In this document: piece by piece, positions 1,601 through 25,591 of the stretch
Layout: every line of letters starts with the position of its first letter
Numbering within the stretch: position 1 is the stretch's first letter
Notes under the pieces: model-generated
Seen by the model: the letters and a program-made list of their open reading frames with translations, nothing else
Databases searched by the model: none
Told to the model about the DNA's origin: nothing
Virus record (IMG/VR): IMGVR_UViG_3300036852_000217
Span: 1-29,425 of that record
DNA: 29,425 nt
Reading direction: 5' to 3' (one strand)
Origin: a virus
Made by a program: the position numbers and the translations under genes

Positions 1601-1825
1601 CTATTGAGATTCTCCACGATTTTTCGCTTTATTTCTCGCTTTATTTTTCTCCTTTTTATAATTTCTTTTTGTTTTATTTCTGATATGAAAATGTCCTAAC
1701 ACCTCTGGACAGGGATAGATTTGAAAATTCCTACCCCAGTAATAAACTCTTATATGTTTATCTGCCTCTTCTTCCGTATAGAATATGACCTTACCAAGAT
1801 GTTGCGTACACCAATAAGGTCTCAT
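1601..1825 (-). CDS. Small Cys/His protein, 74 aa (CP...GxH type phage protein)
   Basis: ATG at 1825 overlaps the stop of the upstream gene in an ATGA arrangement. The N-terminus has YWCTQHLGK, and residues 37-47 read YPCPEVLGHFH, followed by a very basic Lys/Arg/Asn tail. The CxxH...CP...HxH pattern matches a class of short zinc-ribbon-like proteins common in actinobacteriophage early operons; that comparison is from memory. The basic tail suggests nucleic-acid contact. No defined function. Confidence 0.75.
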   Translation of the reverse strand: MRPYWCTQHLGKVIFYTEEEADKHIRVYYWGRNFQIYPCPEVLGHFHIRNKTKRNYKKEKNKARNKAKNRGESQ

Positions 1826-2031
1826 TCTTCGTACCAGTAGTCTGTAATACCTGCATTCTCTTGTCTTAGAAACAAATCAGCACGTTCTATGTAATCATAA
1901 ACTCTATGTGTTTCTCTTTCACAATATGCTTTATGGATAACAGGTTTATCATCATTTCTATATGCAAGACACGAATGACATTGATTAGTAGCTTTATCGT
2001 ATATGGCTCTATCATCATTAGTAAATGTCAT
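1822..2031 (-). CDS. Small Cys-containing protein, 69 aa, unknown
   Basis: ATG at 2031 follows AAGAAGAATA. It contains CHSC at residues 18-21 and a further Cys at about 37 with nearby His residues, giving a possible single zinc site. It overlaps the 48-aa gene upstream by 14 bases and the 74-aa gene downstream by 4 bases, which supports translation as part of the operon. No family is recognised. Confidence 0.7.
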   Translation of the reverse strand: MTFTNDDRAIYDKATNQCHSCLAYRNDDKPVIHKAYCERETHRVYDYIERADLFLRQENAGITDYWYEE

Positions 2032-2847: not shown

Positions 2848-3138
2848 CTAAGCAGAAGCAAAGAATGGAGTAGGTTGCACTTTCAATTCGTATACTTCAA
2901 AATACCCTACATTGGATTCCACAGCAGTTAGAATCCAACTGGCCAAATCCTTTGCAGTGTTTACTTGGAGGTTAAGCCAGGTTTCTTCGCCTGTCTTTAA
3001 ATAATGCCATTTGGAGCCACTTGCTGCCGAAAATACAACAACTGTTCCGAAAGGGAATGTATCAGAAGGAACTCGATTCATAATATCTAACTTACTCTGA
3101 AGATCCGCTATTTGTTCTTGTATCTCTGCTCTTTTCAT
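2848..3138 (-). CDS. Hypothetical phage protein with N-terminal coiled coil, 96 aa
   Basis: Residues 1-22 have heptad character (EIQEQIADLQSKLD). The rest alternates as a small beta-rich domain with the stretch FGTVVVFSAASGSKWHYLKTG. It sits between the small membrane gene and the 98-aa gene. The ribosome site is weak (GAGTAAGA). Unknown function; oligomerisation through the helix is likely. Confidence 0.7.
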   Translation of the reverse strand: MKRAEIQEQIADLQSKLDIMNRVPSDTFPFGTVVVFSAASGSKWHYLKTGEETWLNLQVNTAKDLASWILTAVESNVGYFEVYELKVQPTPFFASA

Positions 3139-3144
3139 TCTTAC

Positions 3145-3441
3145 TCATTTCTTGTGACAGGGACAATCACAATCCTGTGTAGTATTTCCCCGATCGGAAG
3201 AGGCCATGCCTACTCCATTATGTTCACACAAATCATGTTTATTCTCATTACAACGAACTGAGCGAACTTCATTATTTACATCATACATAGTTACTACAAG
3301 GACACCTTCTACACTAGTATCAGCAGGTTTAAAAACGATAGAGAAGTGTCTACTCTCATGCTTGTCAATCTGAAAATAAGCTGATGCTATTATCTTTTCA
3401 AGAGTGTCACTGGCAGTATAAAGCTTAGTAAATTTCTTCAT
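3145..3441 (-). CDS. Protein with C-terminal Cys/His cluster, 98 aa
   Basis: ATG at 3441 follows GAGGATGAGTAAGAA. Residues 1-60 form a mixed alpha/beta region. The C-terminal 35 residues hold C..N.H..C.H and end CDCPCHKK, dense enough for one or two zinc ions. A terminal CxCPCH cluster recurs in short actinophage proteins, as I recall them. Function unknown. Confidence 0.75.
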   Translation of the reverse strand: MKKFTKLYTASDTLEKIIASAYFQIDKHESRHFSIVFKPADTSVEGVLVVTMYDVNNEVRSVRCNENKHDLCEHNGVGMASSDRGNTTQDCDCPCHKK

Positions 3442-3496
3442 TTCTTACTCATCCTCATTTTGATAGCCTCAAGGCCAATTAATTCTAGTTGCCTCC

Positions 3497-3921: not shown

Positions 3922-4211
3922 TATTTCTTCTCTCCTTTAATAGTCACAGAGCAGGTCACTTCAATTTCATACGGTTTAACACCAAAGTTTTCACTAAAAA
4001 AAGTGAGAACTTCTGTAGCATTCCATTCTGGATCGTAATGACCACAATGTGCACACTGAAAGATTTGACCATTTGTTATAATGAACGTATGTCCTCCAAA
4101 ATCAATGGCAAGACGCTTCTCAGTCCATACCGGGTTAGTGTCAACAGGCTTAGCAGATTCAATCCATTTTGTTATTCTTTTACGTGTGGCGTCTGAGGGA
4201 GATTCTTTCAT
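3921..4211 (-). CDS. Small protein with one zinc knuckle, 96 aa
   Basis: Two adjacent ATG codons (4214 and 4211) follow TTGAGGATATG. Only the second gives a usable spacing from GAGG, so I use 4211. Residues near the middle read FQCAHCGHYDPEW, a CxxCxH knuckle after an FGGHTFIITNGQ hairpin. The C-terminus is a beta strand region (EIEVTCSVTIKG). Function unknown. Confidence 0.7.
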   Translation of the reverse strand: MKESPSDATRKRITKWIESAKPVDTNPVWTEKRLAIDFGGHTFIITNGQIFQCAHCGHYDPEWNATEVLTFFSENFGVKPYEIEVTCSVTIKGEKK

Positions 4212-4218
4212 CATATCC

Positions 4219-4452
4219 TCAATTCACAATTATTACTTGGAAATAGTCAGCTGAGTATCTCAAATAGGGATCAGTAATGTAAGAAGGTATAAGGGAACTA
4301 GTCCGCCATAAGACTAAAATGGAACTACCATCTAAACAATTCATACTTTTCGGATGTGTAATTTTAGGATTCTTATATCTTTCTGCTATTTCCCAGATGA
4401 AGTAAGAACCGTCTGCCAATTGGTTGCAATTAAGCCATATTTTCTTTTTCAT
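4219..4452 (-). CDS. Hypothetical protein, 77 aa
   Basis: The ribosome site AATTGAGGATTTG precedes ATG 4452; a TTG at 4455 overlaps that spacing and is less likely. The same leader (AATTGAGGAT-TGATG) precedes the next gene, so the two starts look duplicated. The protein has a central stretch SSILVLWRTSSLIPSYI but no clear membrane helix. No family is recognised. Confidence 0.65.
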   Translation of the reverse strand: MKKKIWLNCNQLADGSYFIWEIAERYKNPKITHPKSMNCLDGSSILVLWRTSSLIPSYITDPYLRYSADYFQVIIVN

Positions 4453-4490: not shown

Positions 4491-4721
4491 TTACGCTCCG
4501 TGTGGCTTAAGCCTAATAGAGTTTTTGCCTTCTCTAAGCAGTTGTTCTAATTTGATAGTCGCAATAGGAGCATAGAGTAAGTTAGTCTCTTTTGCTTTGT
4601 TGTTATCTATAACTGATTGATCAATCCATTCATCTCCTAATTCTTCAGTTTTATATACGTAACCATCTCTCCATTCTGTTATTTTGAAAACTGACTTTAA
4701 GAATTGTAATTCTCTTGTCAT
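4491..4721 (-). CDS. Hypothetical protein, 76 aa, first gene of the left operon
   Basis: A longer frame begins at ATG 4760, but that ATG lies inside the -10 box of the promoter and cannot be in the transcript. ATG 4721 follows ATGGAGGCTGGCAATTA, a proper ribosome site, so I start there. The protein has a WRDGYVYK hairpin and a basic C-terminus. As the promoter-proximal gene it should be expressed early. Function unknown. Confidence 0.7.
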   Translation of the reverse strand: MTRELQFLKSVFKITEWRDGYVYKTEELGDEWIDQSVIDNNKAKETNLLYAPIATIKLEQLLREGKNSIRLKPHGA

Positions 4722-4758
4722 TAATTGCCAGCCTCCATCCATTCCGCTATGTGGTACC

Positions 4759-4787
4759 ATTATATCATCTCATAATTGTATCGTCAA
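4759..4787 (-). promoter_or_regulatory. Strong sigma70-type promoter of the leftward operon
   Basis: On the minus strand TTGACG (4782-4787) is separated by exactly 17 bases from TATAAT (4759-4764). This is the best promoter match in the window. It lies 38 bases upstream of the chosen start at 4721 and reads into the 0-4.7 kb operon. Confidence 0.8.
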
Positions 4788-4813
4788 ATCGACAGACATC
4801 AATGCCTGATATG

Positions 4814-4877
4814 TTAAACGATCGTTAAAGTATATTTATTGCGAAGTTTAATTATTCGAATCGGACAAAACGGACAT
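4814..4877. promoter_or_regulatory. Putative operator region: palindrome and CGGACA repeats
   Basis: Between the divergent promoters lies the 10-bp perfect palindrome AACGATCGTT (4817-4826), flanked by TTA and AAA. It is followed by two direct CGGACA copies (4862-4867 and 4871-4876). The second reads CGGACATA, a motif repeated near 9806-9812 and 10561-10567. A DNA-binding site is plausible; the binding protein is unknown. A CGAAC/GTTCG hairpin (4953-4957 with 4971-4975) lies further right. The rest of 4788-5071 shows no gene. Confidence 0.4.
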
Positions 4878-4984
4878 AGAAATTTCTGAGATTGTAGAGA
4901 TCAAACACTGGCCAAGATGGCAGCTCACAGAGTAGACTCAAAGGGTACCGAGCGAACGGATGCTGTCTAGGTTCGGGCTGTTAA

Positions 4985-5015
4985 TTGACAATTGAAAAAT
5001 ATTAACAGTTACGAT
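4985..5015 (+). promoter_or_regulatory. Probable promoter of the 288-aa gene
   Basis: TTGACA (4985-4990) is a perfect -35 box. The best -10 is TACGAT (5010-5015), which fits the relaxed TANNNT pattern, but the 19-base spacer is long. The start codon is 57 bases downstream. This is the only rightward promoter-like pair before the gene. Confidence 0.5.
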
Positions 5016-5071
5016 TCTAGCTAGTATTTGGATCGCTCAAATTCTGTTATTCCCTAGAAAGGGGAAAGAAA

Positions 5072-5938
5072 ATGACCGCTCCTTCTACTGCTAAGAAGAC
5101 TTCTGCTAAGGCAAATCTGTCTGAGACAGTTAAGTCTGAAACTCCGGAAACGGAAACTCAGTCAGAAACTGTTAAGACGGAGGCTCCTAGGGTTTCTGAA
5201 ATTCTTTCTACGAATGCTATTCTTGCAGATTTCGTTCGTCAGTACCTTGAAGTGTTCGATGAGATTTCGAATTACAACAAGGAAGTATTGGCAGAGAAAG
5301 ACGCTGAGTGGACTTCTGGAAAGGTTTTGGAAAAGGGTCGTGAATTGGCGCGTCCTACTGATAAGGATGCTAAGCCTGACACAGAAGTCAAGACTGCAAT
5401 TGAAGCTTTCGAAAGTCTCGTAAATGAGATGAACAAGGCTCGTAAGAATGCTCTCGATATTGTTTCTAAGAGGTTGGGTATTACTCTTTCTGCTACGGCA
5501 GAGCGTAATCCCGAAATCGAAGCTCCAATGAAAGAGCATCGTAAGTTTGCTGTTGAGATTGGTACTCAGCTCGAAGTAATGGCAAAGATGCTTTCTGATG
5601 AGAAGGTAAGCTCTGCTATTAGTGAGTTTCTCAACAACTTCCCTCTTCCTGCAATTGGAAGGGACCAGGTCCGTACTTTCGGAAGCGATGAAAAGGCCAC
5701 TCCTAAGTATCGCGTTCATGTTTCCGTCTTTGATAAGGATGGAAAGGAAATTGTTAGCGAGGATGGTTTCACAAAGACTGTCCTTGCACTTCCTAAATAT
5801 TACGAGCGCGGAAAGGCTATTAAGTCTGATACGCTTCGTGACGTTTGGGAAAAGGCCGGTAACTCTACAGAGAAAACGGTTTCACCAACTGTCGAATTCA
5901 CTGACAATGAGTTGCATTTCGTAATTACCAAAAAGTGA
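5072..5938 (+). CDS. Solitary rightward gene, 288-aa protein of unknown function
   Basis: ATG 5072 follows AAGGGGAAAGAAA. Residues 1-40 are Thr/Glu/Lys-rich and probably disordered. Residues 45-190 are mostly helical with no membrane segment. Residues 205-288 look beta-rich (YRVHVSVFDKDGKEIV then ELHFVITKK at the end). The gene has its own promoter and a strong terminator and interrupts two leftward gene blocks. Its codon use differs from its neighbours (AAG, GAG, CGT, GTC and TCT favoured, fewer TTA and AGA), as in highly expressed genes. I recognise no family. It could be an abundant DNA-binding or host-takeover protein, or a moron gene. Confidence 0.85.
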   Translation: MTAPSTAKKTSAKANLSETVKSETPETETQSETVKTEAPRVSEILSTNAILADFVRQYLEVFDEISNYNKEVLAEKDAEWTSGKVLEKGRELARPTDKDAKPDTEVKTAIEAFESLVNEMNKARKNALDIVSKRLGITLSATAERNPEIEAPMKEHRKFAVEIGTQLEVMAKMLSDEKVSSAISEFLNNFPLPAIGRDQVRTFGSDEKATPKYRVHVSVFDKDGKEIVSEDGFTKTVLALPKYYERGKAIKSDTLRDVWEKAGNSTEKTVSPTVEFTDNELHFVITKK

Positions 5939-10697: not shown

Positions 10698-10970
10698 ATG
10701 TCTTTGCAGGGCAAACCTGAAACTTTTCAGCAAAAAGCCATCCGTCTAATTACTAATTACGTAGAAGAACACTTCGATAAGTCTGACCCACAAGCACCTT
10801 ATTACGAGGTTTACGTAGTGTGGTTTTCTAAGACACTTCAAAACTGGAAAGCTCTGTTAAGTACTACTTTGCCAGACCAGATGTACTATGAAGTTACTTA
10901 TAACGGAGACCTAGGTGAAACCTACATTGACGCTTATAAGAAGATCGAAAACATGAAAGTGCCTGACTGA
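10698..10970 (+). CDS. DUF6275-like protein, 90 aa
   Basis: ATG 10698 follows GATTGGGAGTTTTA. After a helical N-terminus (residues 9-25) comes YEVYVVWFSKTLQNWKALLS, then MYYEVTYNGDLGETYIDAYKK. This signature is the one I associate with DUF6275, a small phage/prophage protein family of unknown function found in Gram-positive hosts. It overlaps the Acb2-like gene by 1 base (TGATGG), so the two are probably translated together. First gene of the rightward operon. Confidence 0.82.
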   Translation: MSLQGKPETFQQKAIRLITNYVEEHFDKSDPQAPYYEVYVVWFSKTLQNWKALLSTTLPDQMYYEVTYNGDLGETYIDAYKKIENMKVPD

Positions 10971-11239
10971 TGGATAAAGAGATGGAAGAATTACAAAAGA
11001 AAATCCAAAGAATTCCATATATCGCTGATGAACAACTAGAATGGAGATTTGCTTTTCATCCTGCTACAGATGTAGAAAAGAAGAACGATCACGCTTCTGT
11101 TCGTCAACACTGTTTAGAACTTGCTAAGTTTATTAACAAAAAGGTTCCAGAAGGACGCGAAAAGTCTTTAGCTATTACTAAGCTTGAAGAAGTTATGATG
11201 TGGGCTAATGCAGGAATTGCGAGGTCTTCAGAGAAGTGA
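10970..11239 (+). CDS. acb2: Acb2-like cyclic-oligonucleotide sponge (anti-CBASS)
   Basis: The 89 residues show the Acb2 family signature: RFAFHP at 26-31, a first helix with R and K residues (about 43-58), then GREKSLAITKLEEVMMWANA at 62-81 followed by GIAR. In characterised Acb2 proteins this helical hairpin assembles into a hexamer that sequesters cyclic di- and trinucleotides and so blocks CBASS signalling. The residue before His30 is Phe; I recall Tyr there in many relatives, and an aromatic would still stack on a base. About 20 extra residues extend the N-terminus. Placement at the start of the rightward operon fits a defence-countering early gene. Confidence 0.85.
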   Translation: MDKEMEELQKKIQRIPYIADEQLEWRFAFHPATDVEKKNDHASVRQHCLELAKFINKKVPEGREKSLAITKLEEVMMWANAGIARSSEK

Positions 11240-11415
11240 TGAATTCAATTTACCACTTTAACAGATTACGCGACATGCTAAATGAATACGAACCTTCTCG
11301 GGAACTTAGTTTAGTAAAAACTAAGATTGATGAAGCAGAACTCTGGCTTACTAAATGTCGTCCAACAATTGCTGCACGAGAACGAGATCAGATGAGTAGT
11401 AGCAACAGTGAGTAA
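11239..11415 (+). CDS. Short Acb2-hairpin-like protein, 58 aa
   Basis: ATG 11239 overlaps the stop of the Acb2-like gene (TGATG). Residues 21-36 (RELSLVKTKIDEAELW) match residues 63-78 of the neighbour (REKSLAITKLEEVMMW) at 8 of 16 positions, including R, E, S, L, T, K, E and W. A short helix and a Pro precede this, as in Acb2. The FxFHP entry and the WANA ending are missing. It looks like a truncated or diverged tandem paralogue, possibly a second sponge, an assembly partner or a decaying copy. Confidence 0.7.
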   Translation: MNSIYHFNRLRDMLNEYEPSRELSLVKTKIDEAELWLTKCRPTIAARERDQMSSSNSE

Positions 11416-11430
11416 TAACTGGGAGGGAGA

Positions 11431-12192
11431 ATGGCAAGTAGGCAACAATATTGGGCTATTAAAAATGCTTTGACTAAGTCAGAAAAAGACCTAATCAATT
11501 ACTACGAACTACAATGGTTCTTACGCCACAACGTACCCACTATTGAGCAAGTTGCTAAATATCTAAAGTTATCCCAAGTTACAGTTAACTATTACCTAAA
11601 ACGTAGACAAGTTATTAAAGCTTTAGAAGATAGAGGAATTCCTTGGAGACAACACTCACAAGGTGATTTAACAGCCACACAGGTTGCTGCTGCTATTACA
11701 GTAATGAACATGGTAGATGAGCGACCTATGTCTGAAAAATTAGACCAACTTGGAATTCTCCCAGCAACTTATTACGCTTGGTTGAACGACCCGCAATTTA
11801 AAAACTTAGTCAATAACTTAGCAGACCAAAACCTGAGTAATGTGCGTCCTGCAGCTGTGGCGGAATTTACTAAGAAAATTAATCAAGGTGATTGGAATGC
11901 AATTAAATATTGGTTAGATACTACTGGTGAATTGCAAAGCGATCAGCCACAGAGTGAACAGCTAATTATAATGATTATTGAGATTATTCAACGTCACGTT
12001 AAAGACCCTACAACTATGGTTGCTATTGCTCAGGACCTTAAAGCAGCTACTCAAAATAGAACTCTTGAAGTTATTACTCCCCCCCAAATTACTGGTGAGC
12101 TGGTAGAGGATCAAGAGTTAATAGCTGCTAAAAAACAATTAGGATTAGACCAGCTTCGTCCTGAATACGAAACAGTAGATAGGAGAAGCTGA
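11431..12192 (+). CDS. Putative terminase small subunit, 253 aa
   Basis: ATG 11431 follows CTGGGAGGGAGA, the best ribosome site in this part. Residues 35-60 form a helix-turn-helix (TIEQVAKYLKLSQVTVNYYLK). A second HTH-like stretch follows at about 100-118 (SEKLDQLGILPATYYAWLND) with a helical region after it. Two DNA-binding units and a charged C-terminus upstream of the packaging genes fit a small terminase that recognises viral DNA. The large subunit lies only 2.2 kb downstream, separated by structural genes. A general DNA-binding regulator is the alternative. Confidence 0.75.
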   Translation: MASRQQYWAIKNALTKSEKDLINYYELQWFLRHNVPTIEQVAKYLKLSQVTVNYYLKRRQVIKALEDRGIPWRQHSQGDLTATQVAAAITVMNMVDERPMSEKLDQLGILPATYYAWLNDPQFKNLVNNLADQNLSNVRPAAVAEFTKKINQGDWNAIKYWLDTTGELQSDQPQSEQLIIMIIEIIQRHVKDPTTMVAIAQDLKAATQNRTLEVITPPQITGELVEDQELIAAKKQLGLDQLRPEYETVDRRS

Positions 12193-12380
12193 TGGATTAT
12201 CTAGAAGATGGAGAGTTTTTCCAATTCGTAGATGTTTATCCTGATGGAACATTTGAGATTTCTCAAAGATTAAGGCGTTATTCCTTAAAGACTCTTAACT
12301 CAATCTACATCATGGATCATGATTCGGAGGGGAGATGTTATTGTAAATGGCAGTTACCTTCACCCCAAACATTGGTTTAG
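12192..12380 (+). CDS. Hypothetical protein, 62 aa
   Basis: ATG 12192 overlaps the previous stop by 1 base (TGATGG). The sequence is acidic at the N-terminus with a beta hairpin (FVDVYPDGTFEIS) and a CYCKW near the end. It overlaps the next gene by 34 bases, so the last 11 residues are encoded in a region shared with that gene's start. Unknown function. Confidence 0.65.
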   Translation: MDYLEDGEFFQFVDVYPDGTFEISQRLRRYSLKTLNSIYIMDHDSEGRCYCKWQLPSPQTLV

Positions 12381-12934
12381 CCAAACCAGACTTAACAGAA
12401 CTAGCTAAAGAGTGGGCTACTAACACTAAACTGTGCGAAGACAACAATCTTATTCTTATTGATAAAACAAATTTACCCCTTACTTCATACAACCCCACTA
12501 TGGTAGGTTCTTCTACTAACCCTAATGTTGGTGTTGGTTCTCTCATTGGTGAGTACACAGTATTTCAAGGATTTGTCTGGGGAAATTTTGTCATTAACTT
12601 TTTAAATCCAGGAGTTGCTTCTGGGAGTGGTGCTGGAGCATATGGAATTAGTTTACCTTTTGCTGCCGACACCTCATTCCACAATGTAGGAACTAGTTTA
12701 TCGGATATTCCCGGTGTGGCGAGCTGTATTGGTGAAGCGCATTTTATAACTTTTGTTGTAAATTCAGGAGGAACAGCTGTTTTGGATATAGTTGTAGTTG
12801 GTGGAGTTACTTATGCACGTATTGTTACAGAAACTTTTCCAGGGAAAACAGCTCCTTATTTCACTCCAGGTATGCCTTTTAATTTTGCAAATGGTGACCA
12901 TATAACCGGCCAATTCTTCTACAAGAAGGCTTAG
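12347..12934 (+). CDS. Beta-rich virion protein, copy 1 of 3 (fibre or receptor-binding type)
   Basis: 195 residues. The N-terminus has NIGLAKPDLTELAKEW. After a linker the beta-rich domain has NPNVGVGSLIGEY, then FVWGNFVINF, then GAYGISLPF at 97-105. The same words occur in the next two large genes, so this is a paralogue family. Gly-rich strand repeats closed by LPF are typical of jelly-roll or knob domains in phage fibres. GGAGGGGAG lies 12 bases upstream. Placement between terminase genes is unusual for adhesins. Enzymatic motifs are absent. Confidence 0.7.
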   Translation: MAVTFTPNIGLAKPDLTELAKEWATNTKLCEDNNLILIDKTNLPLTSYNPTMVGSSTNPNVGVGSLIGEYTVFQGFVWGNFVINFLNPGVASGSGAGAYGISLPFAADTSFHNVGTSLSDIPGVASCIGEAHFITFVVNSGGTAVLDIVVVGGVTYARIVTETFPGKTAPYFTPGMPFNFANGDHITGQFFYKKA

Positions 12935-12943
12935 GAGGTTTTT

Positions 12944-13033
12944 ATGAAATTAGTTGCTAGAATTACTTATAGTATTATAATGCTAGCTTTGATACTTACT
13001 TTGGCAGTTATAGCCTTTGGGAATTATCAATAA
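12944..13033 (+). CDS. 29-aa single-span membrane peptide
   Basis: ATG 12944 follows TTAGGAGGTTTTT, the strongest ribosome site in the window. Residues 7-25 form one hydrophobic span (TYSIIMLALILTLAVIAFG), with basic residues in front (MKLVAR). The stop overlaps the next start (TAATG). It may be a holin-like, exclusion or regulatory peptide; no family is recognised. The perfect ribosome site argues for real expression. Confidence 0.65.
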   Translation: MKLVARITYSIIMLALILTLAVIAFGNYQ

Positions 13034-13596
13034 TGGGTACCACCGTTAGTACTAATTTAGGTCTTATCAAACCAGATATTGATGAATCAATTAAAGAAGC
13101 TCTACCTACATTTGCTGGATGGCCTGCACAAAATAGCATTAATATGGATAAAATTGATGCTTTATTTAGAGCTAGTACAGGTATATATACAGTGAATCTA
13201 ACTGCTGATATTGCTAATCCTACATTAGGTGCGGGTGGATTTACAGAGGGAAAATGGGTTCGTCTATATCCAAGAATGGTAATTGTATTTTTTAGAATTT
13301 ATGCAGGAGTTGCTGGATTTGCTGCTGGTAACGGTGACTATAGAATTAATTTACCTTTTGCTGTTGATCCTGTTCTTGATGCTAGTGATAGTGGACGAGG
13401 TATTCCAATAGGTAAATGTGCATTTAAAGATAATAGTGCTGTTCTTACCAGTTCAGCTTTTCTTGTACTGTATGATGCTGTTAATGATGTTATTATTTTT
13501 GAATTATCTCAAGGAGATATTTTTGCTTCTTCATATCCTTTTTCAACAGATGATAGATTATCGGGGTATTTTATGTATCCAACGGCTGTAGCATAA
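13033..13596 (+). CDS. Beta-rich virion protein, copy 2 of 3
   Basis: 187 residues. The start NLGLIKPDIDESIKEA parallels copy 1. NSINMDKIDALF (34-45) parallels the NEVNCDLIDAY of copy 3. The beta domain carries NPTLGAGGFTEG, then FFRIYAG, then GNGDYRINLPF ending at residue 109. The shared N-terminus may be the virion anchor, with the C-terminal domain the exposed part. Start and stop overlap the neighbours by a few bases. Confidence 0.7.
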   Translation: MGTTVSTNLGLIKPDIDESIKEALPTFAGWPAQNSINMDKIDALFRASTGIYTVNLTADIANPTLGAGGFTEGKWVRLYPRMVIVFFRIYAGVAGFAAGNGDYRINLPFAVDPVLDASDSGRGIPIGKCAFKDNSAVLTSSAFLVLYDAVNDVIIFELSQGDIFASSYPFSTDDRLSGYFMYPTAVA

Positions 13597-14156
13597 TGGT
13601 ACTAGCTTTAGTTACACCTACAGGTCCAAATTTTATTAAAGATTGGCCTTCTCAAAATGAAGTTAATTGCGATTTAATAGATGCTTATGCTGGTCCATGT
13701 TTAATATCTCAACCATTACAGACGTACGTTCCTGTTCTTAGTGCTACTATTACTCCTCCTACTCTTGGAGCAGGTAATATCATTCAAGGTTACTATTATA
13801 GAATTTTTGATCAAATTTTTACTTGGGGTCATTTTAGATATGGAACTGGATTTAATGCAGGATCTGGTATTTATACTATAACATTACCCTTTAAAGTTAA
13901 AAATCTTATTGCTCTAGATACTGCTCTTGCTAATACACCTATAGTTGGCAATGGCCACGTATGGGATGAAAGTAATGCATTAGCTGGTGGACGACAGCCT
14001 GTTACTTGTCAATTAAGAACTAATCAGATATTAATGTTTGGTATTAGAATGAATTCAGGTGCAGCAGCTAGAGAAGTAAGTAATACTATACCTATTACTT
14101 GGGCTGTTGATGACGGACTAAAATGGTTTGCACGCTACCAAAGGGATCCAACATGA
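13596..14156 (+). CDS. Beta-rich virion protein, copy 3 of 3
   Basis: 186 residues. The N-terminus is shorter but keeps DWPSQNEVNCDLIDAY (16-31). PPTLGAGNIIQGYYY (54-68), then FTWGHFRYGTGF and GIYTITLPF (91-99), align with the other two copies. The last 100 residues differ most among the copies, as expected for a domain that meets variable receptors. It overlaps the next gene by ATGA. Confidence 0.7.
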   Translation: MVLALVTPTGPNFIKDWPSQNEVNCDLIDAYAGPCLISQPLQTYVPVLSATITPPTLGAGNIIQGYYYRIFDQIFTWGHFRYGTGFNAGSGIYTITLPFKVKNLIALDTALANTPIVGNGHVWDESNALAGGRQPVTCQLRTNQILMFGIRMNSGAAAREVSNTIPITWAVDDGLKWFARYQRDPT

Positions 14157-23786: not shown

Positions 23787-25361
23787 GTGGCTACTGAAAT
23801 TCTTAGACTTGGGCCTTTCTCAGGTGGACTAAATATTGGTTCTGATCCTGTTTTAATCGGCGATAATGAGCTTATCGAATGTCTTAATTTTGAACTTGAT
23901 ACTGATGGATCTTTAGTTAGTAGACCAGCAATTCAAGTTACCTTTCAAGGAGCAACAAATCAAAGACTTCTTATTTTTGGTTCTATCGTATTTAGTGGTA
24001 CTCTTTACTTATTCGCTACCAGGGCTGGTGCTACTTTTGTTAGTTCTAATGCGGGAAGTTCGTGGACGGAATTAAATCCTGGTGCAGTATCTCGTGAGTG
24101 CAAAACTATGGAAGTTTATAATAATACAGTTTGGTTACCCGCCACACCTTTAAGTGCAAATGGTGGAATGTCTTGGACTCCTGGTGGTGGAGCAGTTGCA
24201 GTAGCAGCCATGCCAAGAGCAGAAAAATGTGTAGTTCATAAAAATAGACTTTATTTATGTCCAGGAGAAACTGCTACAACTAACGCATCTAGATTATCTT
24301 TTTCTCAATCTGCTGATTTTACTACGTGGCCTGGTCCTAATTTTATTGATGTGCAGCCAGGTGATGGGGATACTTTAAATAATGTTGCTATTTATCAAGA
24401 TAACTTACTTCTTTTTAAAGGTGAAAGTACACATGTTCTTGCCTACGATTTAGATCCTGTTGATGCTATTCTTCGTGAAATTAATCCCGTTGTAGGTTCT
24501 GGTGGAAGCTTTGGCGTAGTGCAGTATGAGAATACTGTGTATTGTATGCACAGAAATAAGATATATGAAATTACTAACTTTAATTTTTCTTTAATTAATT
24601 TAAAGGTTCCTCTAGTTTTCGATAATTCTTTACCTATTGGAACAACTGCACGCTATGAAAATCAACATATAAGTACATTAGGTGAACGTTTAATTGTTCG
24701 TTATTTTAATAGAACATATTCTTTTCAATTAAGAACACGTACATGGTCTGAATGGAAAAAAACTGATGATAGTTCTACTATTGAATGGCATGTTTTTGGT
24801 CCTTTAGTTAGAGCTAGAGATTTAACAGGTTCTGGATTAGATAGTTATTATACAGGATATTCATTTGATGTTTCTTCTGGTGGTTATAAAGTAATTAAGA
24901 TTATAGATGGTAGATTTAGTGGTAATAAAGAAGGTACAGGAATTCACAAATTTTATTGTATAGCAACTACAAAAGACTATGATATGGCTGATCCTGTTAG
25001 GTATAAGAGATTATTTTGGTGGGGTGCAGATGTTATTACAGGTCAGGATATTTTAGGATCACTTACTCCTATTACTCTTATTAGTTCAACTACATGGGAT
25101 GCGTTAACTACTGAAACATGGGCTAGCCTCCTTACTTGGGAAGCACCTATAATTGGACCTGTGGCGTTTCAAGAAACTATTACTGGAGATTCTATTGCTA
25201 ATACTAATAAATTGATTAAGTTTGGAAAATCTATGCGATTTAGAAAAGCTAATTTCTCAGTACGTATGGAAACTGAGGGAAGTCCTGCTCAACCAACAAA
25301 AATTTTCCAATTTACTGCTGTTGTAGCAATGAAGCAAACTGTATCTGCGAGAGTTTCCTAA
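23787..25361 (+). CDS. Beta-propeller-like tail/stabilisation protein, 524 aa
   Basis: GTG 23787 follows AGAAAGGAGGTTAA. The sequence is mostly strands with repeated blade-like units (LIFGSIVFSGTLYLFATRAG, WTELNPGA, CKTMEVYNNTVWLPATP). Short-tailed phages have a P22 gp10-like or nozzle protein of this kind next to the adaptor. It would bridge the neck ring to the tail tip. Family inferred from repeat pattern and position. Confidence 0.7.
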   Translation: MATEILRLGPFSGGLNIGSDPVLIGDNELIECLNFELDTDGSLVSRPAIQVTFQGATNQRLLIFGSIVFSGTLYLFATRAGATFVSSNAGSSWTELNPGAVSRECKTMEVYNNTVWLPATPLSANGGMSWTPGGGAVAVAAMPRAEKCVVHKNRLYLCPGETATTNASRLSFSQSADFTTWPGPNFIDVQPGDGDTLNNVAIYQDNLLLFKGESTHVLAYDLDPVDAILREINPVVGSGGSFGVVQYENTVYCMHRNKIYEITNFNFSLINLKVPLVFDNSLPIGTTARYENQHISTLGERLIVRYFNRTYSFQLRTRTWSEWKKTDDSSTIEWHVFGPLVRARDLTGSGLDSYYTGYSFDVSSGGYKVIKIIDGRFSGNKEGTGIHKFYCIATTKDYDMADPVRYKRLFWWGADVITGQDILGSLTPITLISSTTWDALTTETWASLLTWEAPIIGPVAFQETITGDSIANTNKLIKFGKSMRFRKANFSVRMETEGSPAQPTKIFQFTAVVAMKQTVSARVS

Positions 25362-25591
25362 TGCTGGGTAGAGAATTTGTAATAGGTCCATATCCTGCTT
25401 TATACATGCCGCCGAAAATGACTACAGGTATGTATGGAATGCTCAGAAAACATGCAGATAAATTTGCTAAAAGTATTAATAGAGAATTAGCCGAAGGTCC
25501 TACTTTATTTCTTCCTTATAATCATTATGGACCTGTTGAATTATGGCCTCTTGTTATGGAAGAGGGTGATCGTAATCCTATATCAGGGTAA
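25361..25591 (+). CDS. Hypothetical virion protein, 76 aa
   Basis: It overlaps the previous stop by 1 base. It begins with a strand-turn region (FVIGPYPALYMPPKM), then a basic helix (MLRKHADKFAKSINREL). It ends within the start of the next gene. Probably a small tail or internal part. No family is recognised. Confidence 0.65.
   Translation: MLGREFVIGPYPALYMPPKMTTGMYGMLRKHADKFAKSINRELAEGPTLFLPYNHYGPVELWPLVMEEGDRNPISG

Follow-up and report, generated by a model that had tools for sequence, protein, structure and literature searches.

A hairpin-only relative of the Acb2 and Tad1 sponges encoded beside a full-length Acb2-like gene

The window examined here, a 29.4-kb virus contig analysed over its whole length of 29,425 nucleotides, carries two neighbouring genes for proteins of the Acb2/Tad1 hairpin superfamily, one of the full-length type and one of only 58 aa. 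Acb2 is a family of phage proteins that sequester bacterial alarm molecules. Comparison of the short protein with its relatives points to a conserved, hairpin-only member of the superfamily with an origin apart from its neighbour, and the pairing of the two genes recurs in other phages. The likeliest role of the short protein, to which sequence and model comparisons lead us to give about an even chance when all forms are taken together, would be that of a minimal, hairpin-only second sponge alongside Acb2.

The short gene and its setting

From position 10698, the gene order of the window is DUF6275, Acb2-like, short hairpin and terminase small subunit, with the terminase large subunit, portal and major capsid protein genes further downstream (Table 1). 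The sequence-only reading had described a 58-aa frame overlapping the stop codon of the Acb2-like gene, and this frame was recovered with its ATG at 11239 and its stop codon ending at 11415; an alternative start, the GTG at 11236, would give 59 aa. The ATGA overlap of the two genes is arranged as in translational coupling. Phages of Arthrobacter, Microbacterium and Cellulosimicrobium have major capsid proteins ~36% identical to that of the window, a similarity that hints at an actinobacterial host.

Two other features of the window were recorded in passing. Successive genes of 186-195 aa lie upstream of the terminase large subunit gene (12347-12934 and 13033-13596, perhaps also 13596-14156), and look like a small tandem family; the first two have similar N-termini (FTPNIGLAKP and VSTNLGLIKP). 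A tRNA-Leu (taa) is encoded on the minus strand at 1428-1503.

Table 1. Positions of the paired hairpin genes, their neighbours and related loci
Record	Feature	Position	Strand	Basis or remark
Window	DUF6275 protein, 90 aa, first gene of presumed operon	10698-10970	+	PF19791 E 8.5e-33; phrog_918 E 1.9e-35
Window	Acb2-like protein, 89 aa, full-length type	10970-11239	+	PF24729 74.8 bits, E 6.3e-21
Window	RFAFH of Acb2-like protein	11045-11059	+	aligns with cGAMP-contacting Y8...H11 of T4 Vs.4
Window	REKSLAITKLEEVMMW motif of Acb2-like protein, residues 63-78	11156-11203	+	sequence
Window	GTGATG overlap	11236-11241	+	Acb2-like stop TGA 11237-11239 shares its A with the short-gene ATG 11239-11241
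Window	Hairpin-only Acb2/Tad1-family protein, 58 aa	11239-11415	+	PF24729 match, predicted hairpin, clade, purifying selection
Window	RELSLVKTKIDEAELW motif of short protein, residues 21-36	11299-11346	+	sequence
Window	Terminase small subunit-like protein, 253 aa, directly downstream	11431-12192	+	phrog_24579 E 4.8e-9
L002	DUF6275 gene beside hairpin gene	4882-5151		
L006	DUF6275 gene beside hairpin gene	4666-4947		
L023	DUF6275 gene beside hairpin gene	3017-3445		
L030	DUF6275 gene beside hairpin gene	4607-4957		
L197	DUF6275 gene beside hairpin gene	1681-1944		
L299	DUF6275 gene beside hairpin gene	4004-4345		
L127	Streptomyces prophage Acb2-like locus	4977-5195		
L128	Streptomyces prophage Acb2-like locus	4515-5204		
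L135	Streptomyces prophage Acb2-like locus	4854-5201		

Membership of the hairpin family

The short protein scored 27.4 bits (E 4e-6) against the Pfam family PF24729 (Acb2_Tad1_hairpin), just above the curated cut-off of 27 bits. Its homologues scored about 18 to 34 bits against the same family, with L021, L031 and L033 above the cut-off (34.4, 32.3 and 28.4 bits), L030 just below it (25.6 bits) and L002 at 18.3 bits. Across 14 control genomes the family gave 0 matches at E <= 0.01. Against phrog_15810, a group of short hairpin proteins, the window protein reached E 0.005 and its L030 relative E 9.3e-7; searches with PADLOC and NCBIfam returned nothing useful.

Eight of 16 positions had been said to be shared by the two neighbours, and the count held when residues 21-36 of the short protein (RELSLVKTKIDEAELW) were set against residues 63-78 of the Acb2-like protein (REKSLAITKLEEVMMW). 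BLASTP of the two proteins gave 12 identities in 32 positions (E 4e-4), which is beyond chance. Kinship to the immediate neighbour alone is nevertheless weak, because a profile built from 13 full-length relatives only scored the short protein at 8.7 bits, a value that 13 of 20,000 shuffles also reached; it is therefore the wider family, together with intermediates, that carries the case for relatedness. Among 17 relatives, the R, K, E and W of the short-protein motif were invariant. The long-only profile gave a comparable score for another ORF of the window, 25361-25591, which had no Pfam match and was set aside as a chance likeness.

Comparison with the sister phage L002 gave 63% identity for the short protein, with pN 0.25 and pS 0.81, values indicating that the gene is under purifying selection and conserved like a functional gene. 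It is more conserved than its full-length neighbour (63% vs 54%); the corresponding identities were 76% for DUF6275 and 67% for the terminase small subunit.

Predicted structure and comparison with known sponges

AlphaFold2, supplied with the short protein and 16 relatives, predicted helices at residues 7-14, 21-38 and 44-56, with a mean pLDDT of 84.3 and values >90 in the hairpin. In helices 7-14 and 21-38 the model has the two antiparallel helices expected of PF24729, with a short first arm. From the predicted helices it follows that what the short protein retains is the turn, flanked by the final third of the first arm and by most of the second. The proposal of a helical hairpin trimmed at its N-terminus and encoded in tandem with an Acb2-like gene was upheld, the hairpin itself by this prediction (mean pLDDT 84). 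The Acb2-like neighbour was predicted by AlphaFold to have helices at 3-12, 20-26, 35-58 and 63-85 (mean pLDDT 89.9), the last two being its hairpin arms, and it carries an N-terminal RFxFHP segment, of which RFAFH is absent from the short protein.

Foldseek comparison of the short model with the PDB returned CbTad1 as nine of ten matches, a cA3-bound entry among them, at E 1.5 to 3; for the Acb2-like model, T4 Vs.4 came second at E 2.8, which is not significant. Among viral models, seven of the first nine matches to the short model carry the UniProt name 'Acb2/Tad1 hairpin domain-containing', and several of the viral matches are only 50-66 aa long. The solved sequence nearest to the short-protein profile is 'Acb2 homolog 43' (PDB 9ptq, 76 aa, six chains; E 2.3e-7 over residues 17-60), which is 18 residues longer than the window protein.

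With Acb2 itself (T4 Vs.4 and relatives; PF24729, phrog_1454, phrog_717), the short protein shares the hairpin fold, the second-helix TK..E...W positions and its encoding by a phage, and its gene adjoins that of a full-length member. It differs in a first arm of ~8 residues against 24, in the absence from the alignment of the N-terminal dinucleotide-contacting segment (Y8, H11 and K23 in T4 Vs.4), and in having Leu at the A77 position. In Vs.4 numbering, the paired short proteins have L at position 77, and another group of the family has I. The short-protein motif, RE.S...TK..E...W, aligns to Vs.4 positions 61-76, at the hairpin turn and second helix, and T4 Vs.4 itself lacks the RE of the motif.

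Two further relatives bear on the comparison. ClubL gp11 (55 aa, phrog_15810) has in common with the window protein its length, an RE.S...TK..EA..W motif and the missing N-terminal segment, but the ClubL and Smoothie genomes have no full-length Acb2-like gene, whereas the window protein is paired with one and overlaps it. The C-terminal hairpin of Tad1 (CbTad1, Thoeris anti-defence 1), with RE....T..EEA..W, resembles the short protein, the Foldseek matches all being weak; compared with eight Tad1 sequences, the short protein lacks the N-terminal beta domain and the RGVEGT-type tail, and it falls outside the Tad1 clade.

Origin apart from the full-length neighbour

The short gene had been proposed to be a duplicate of its neighbour, and the phylogeny spoke against this. 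A maximum-likelihood tree was built from 60 hairpin cores over 31 columns, and because so few columns were available, only strong forks were counted. The window short protein grouped with the short proteins of L002, L030, L031, L033 and L214 with support of 96/88, and its core was far more similar to other short proteins than to full-length ones. A sister relationship between the short protein and its own neighbour was rejected by the AU test on these 31 columns (p-AU 0.0017). The tree and this test together speak against a local tandem duplicate of 10970-11239, which we reject, and the short gene is, as judged from these core alignments, an older separate branch with an origin apart from its neighbour.

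An origin from Tad1, hinted at by a WLxK ending and by the Foldseek matches, was also rejected, since Tad1 formed its own clade (support 96/97) and core similarity of the short protein to Tad1 was the lowest. The hairpins of ClubL gp11 and of Faecalibacterium phage FP_oengus fell outside the window protein's clade, so either the short form arose more than once or the tree does not resolve this part. Placement of T4 Vs.4 among the clade of the short proteins is unsure because of its very long branch.

The pair in other phages and the association with DUF6275

The terminase small subunit, used as a synteny anchor, led to the related contigs L002, L004/L005, L006, L019/L020 and L023. The sister phage L002 has DUF6275, Acb2-like and short genes in the same order, with a similar overlap near 5366. 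L006 and L023 have DUF6275 and Acb2-like genes without the short hairpin, and in L004 the Acb2-like gene is accompanied by two small ORFs unlike the short hairpin, one of them without a Pfam or PHROGs match. As a separate observation, the Acb2-like gene of L019 (2480-2724; likewise in L020) has a broken frame, and the divergent 74-aa hairpin-like gene that follows it at 2944-3168 is intact; L019 and L020 are metagenome contigs that are identical across 5.7 kb at this locus.

In an unrelated 58.7-kb contig, L030, the DUF6275 gene is followed first by that of a 51-aa short hairpin and next by that of a full-length Acb2-like protein, so that the order of the hairpin genes is reversed relative to the window, and the two hairpin genes do not overlap. 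When whole records were searched with PF24729, the window, L002 and L030 each yielded two matches, and other records usually a single one. The pair therefore recurs when other phage genomes are searched and is known from three phages, two of them sisters. The sequence-only reading had known of no described pair; no paper describing paired or hairpin-only Acb2 was found in a partial coverage of the literature that did not include the main Acb2 structure papers, but the pair itself is not confined to the window. None of 25 bacterial genomes that encode full-length relatives showed a short partner beside them, and the sole prophage among them with two close hairpin genes, in Gracilibacillus, combines Tad1 with Acb2 (L131 3298-3681 and 4965-5225, 1.3 kb apart). 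Tad1 and Acb2-like genes are adjacent in Lactococcus phage 1706 as well, as orf70 and orf71 (L190 258-578 and 580-933).

Hairpin proteins lacking the N-terminal segment also occur alone: 55-aa proteins of phrog_15810 in Gordonia phages ClubL and Smoothie, and proteins of 80 and 74 aa in L031 and L033. Whole-record searches of these four found no second PF24729 match and no full-length Acb2-like gene, so a partner is not obligatory. The kinship proposal had been staked on there being no homologue that both stands alone and lacks the pattern, written there as RE.S...TK...E...W; solo homologues do exist, and all of them keep it. Hairpin-only proteins as such are thus an already known, uncharacterised class. 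A full-length Acb2-like protein of the cultured Gordonia phage Bantam (L204 53229-53471) is the best phage match of the window Acb2 (56%) and would be useful experimentally.

DUF6275 adjoins hairpin genes in the window, L002, L006, L023, L030, Faecalibacterium phage FP_oengus and Arthrobacter phage Brad, where the order is DUF6275, a 66-aa hairpin and terminase. It is not an obligate companion, as six other cultured-phage DUF6275 loci have no nearby hairpin gene, and no mention of DUF6275 was found in the part of the literature covered. A link between DUF6275 and nucleotide-signal evasion, suggested by gene neighbourhood, would be worth a test.

Reciprocal motif state of the partners

A motif survey covered 126 distinct full-length hairpins, which form 83 clusters at 80%; in Vs.4 numbering, R61 was kept in 80 of the 83 clusters and T68 in 79. 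Both residues were lost in only three lineages: L002, L030 and a group of Streptomyces prophages. L002 and L030 are partnered, and their short proteins keep the R, E and S of the motif; that of L030 keeps the T also, and that of L002 has I in its place. With three partnered clusters, three that lost both residues and an overlap of two among the 83, a hypergeometric calculation by hand gave ~0.003, in a set that over-represents the motif, most loci having been retrieved with motif-holding patterns. In a set of 34 loci retrieved through their N-terminus only, a choice blind to the motif, both residues were lost in L002 only; none of the ~30 unpartnered relatives fetched in this way had lost both R and T.

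A strict rule that motif loss requires a partner does not hold. The Streptomyces prophage proteins have GAE for GRE and F for T, and in whole-genome PF24729 searches of L127, L128 and L135 nothing beyond chance level appeared as a second hairpin. In Arthrobacter phage Brad, too, the hairpin has neither motif nor partner. In the window both copies keep the motif, and a division of labour is therefore not visible there. The reciprocal motif state is suggestive, and only that, of a division of labour between the pair members.

Possible functions of the short protein

Known Acb2 and Tad1 sponges are homo-oligomers that hold two kinds of ligand site within one protein. Acb2 proper forms a hexamer, takes up both cyclic di- and trinucleotides, and counters the CBASS defence. 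T4 Vs.4 binds cGAMP through Y8, H11, K23, R79 and F82, and its hexamer requires L29, A66, A73 and A77, with A77I disrupting it (PMC10097602). For cyclic trinucleotides Acb2 has separate pockets, which lie at the trimer interface within the central channel and do not depend on those for dinucleotides (reviewed in PMC12043709).

On the reading we favour, that of a second sponge alongside Acb2, the short gene would be co-translated with the full-length Acb2-like gene in a small DUF6275 operon just upstream of the terminase genes, and its product would sequester a nucleotide alarm signal. Sequestration would most likely occur through the surface of the RE.S...TK..E...W motif, which from its position would line the trinucleotide site, that is, through a three-fold-axis, trinucleotide-type site and not a dinucleotide site. 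The short protein would complement its Acb2-like partner, which would supply the dinucleotide pocket, and it might act as a homo-oligomer or join the Acb2 assembly, either way being possible.

How closely the two proteins work together can be read in several ways. It is quite possible, if short of even, that the short protein is an independent sponge for another ligand, forming separate homo-oligomers and lying beside Acb2 because anti-defence genes cluster. The separate clade of the short proteins argues for this, as do related short proteins that occur alone with the motif retained and the stacking of different sponges, Tad1 plus Acb2, in L131 and Lactococcus phage 1706; against it, clustering alone would not readily account for two unrelated phages sharing the trio of DUF6275, Acb2-like and short genes, nor for the reciprocal motif loss. 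A hetero-oligomer, in which the short protein would insert into the Acb2 hexamer or cap its trimers, leaving fewer dinucleotide sites and altered trinucleotide sites, is doubtful but has a real chance of being right. It would fit the ATGA overlap in both sister phages, the complementary motif state in L002 and L030, and the retention of the half that has the second helix, where the Vs.4 hexamer contacts A66, A73 and A77 lie. It fits less well with short hairpins that need no partner elsewhere, with the separated genes of L030, and with L at position 77 of the paired short proteins, given that A77I breaks the T4 hexamer (PMC10097602), though another group of the family has I there. We regard as unlikely a split-site sponge, in which the full-length protein would keep only the dinucleotide pocket and the hairpin subunit would carry the trinucleotide-type site, the two cooperating or co-assembled.

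Truncated subunits can poison oligomers, and the short protein might accordingly be a regulator or decoy that limits or releases Acb2, for example to avoid Panoptes-type guards sensing Acb2. Panoptes can punish Acb2 activity (PMC12657218). A poison subunit, however, has no need of a conserved putative ligand motif, and most of that motif is gone from the long partner in L002 and L030 and not from its short companion, which leaves this reading improbable. Very improbable is a decaying or unrelated small gene with a convergent likeness: the shuffles that equalled its 8.7 bits and the simplicity of helical hairpins as folds speak for it, but it is opposed by the independent Pfam match above cut-off and by purifying selection, and is largely refuted by the intermediates L030, L031 and L021.

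With half the fold in one member, and with the two sites apparently parting in two phages, such a conserved pair would allow the separability of those sites to be tested. The pair would also test how small a working sponge can be and whether phages make mixed sponges, and the short class can be tested without delay through its solo relatives in cultured Gordonia phages.
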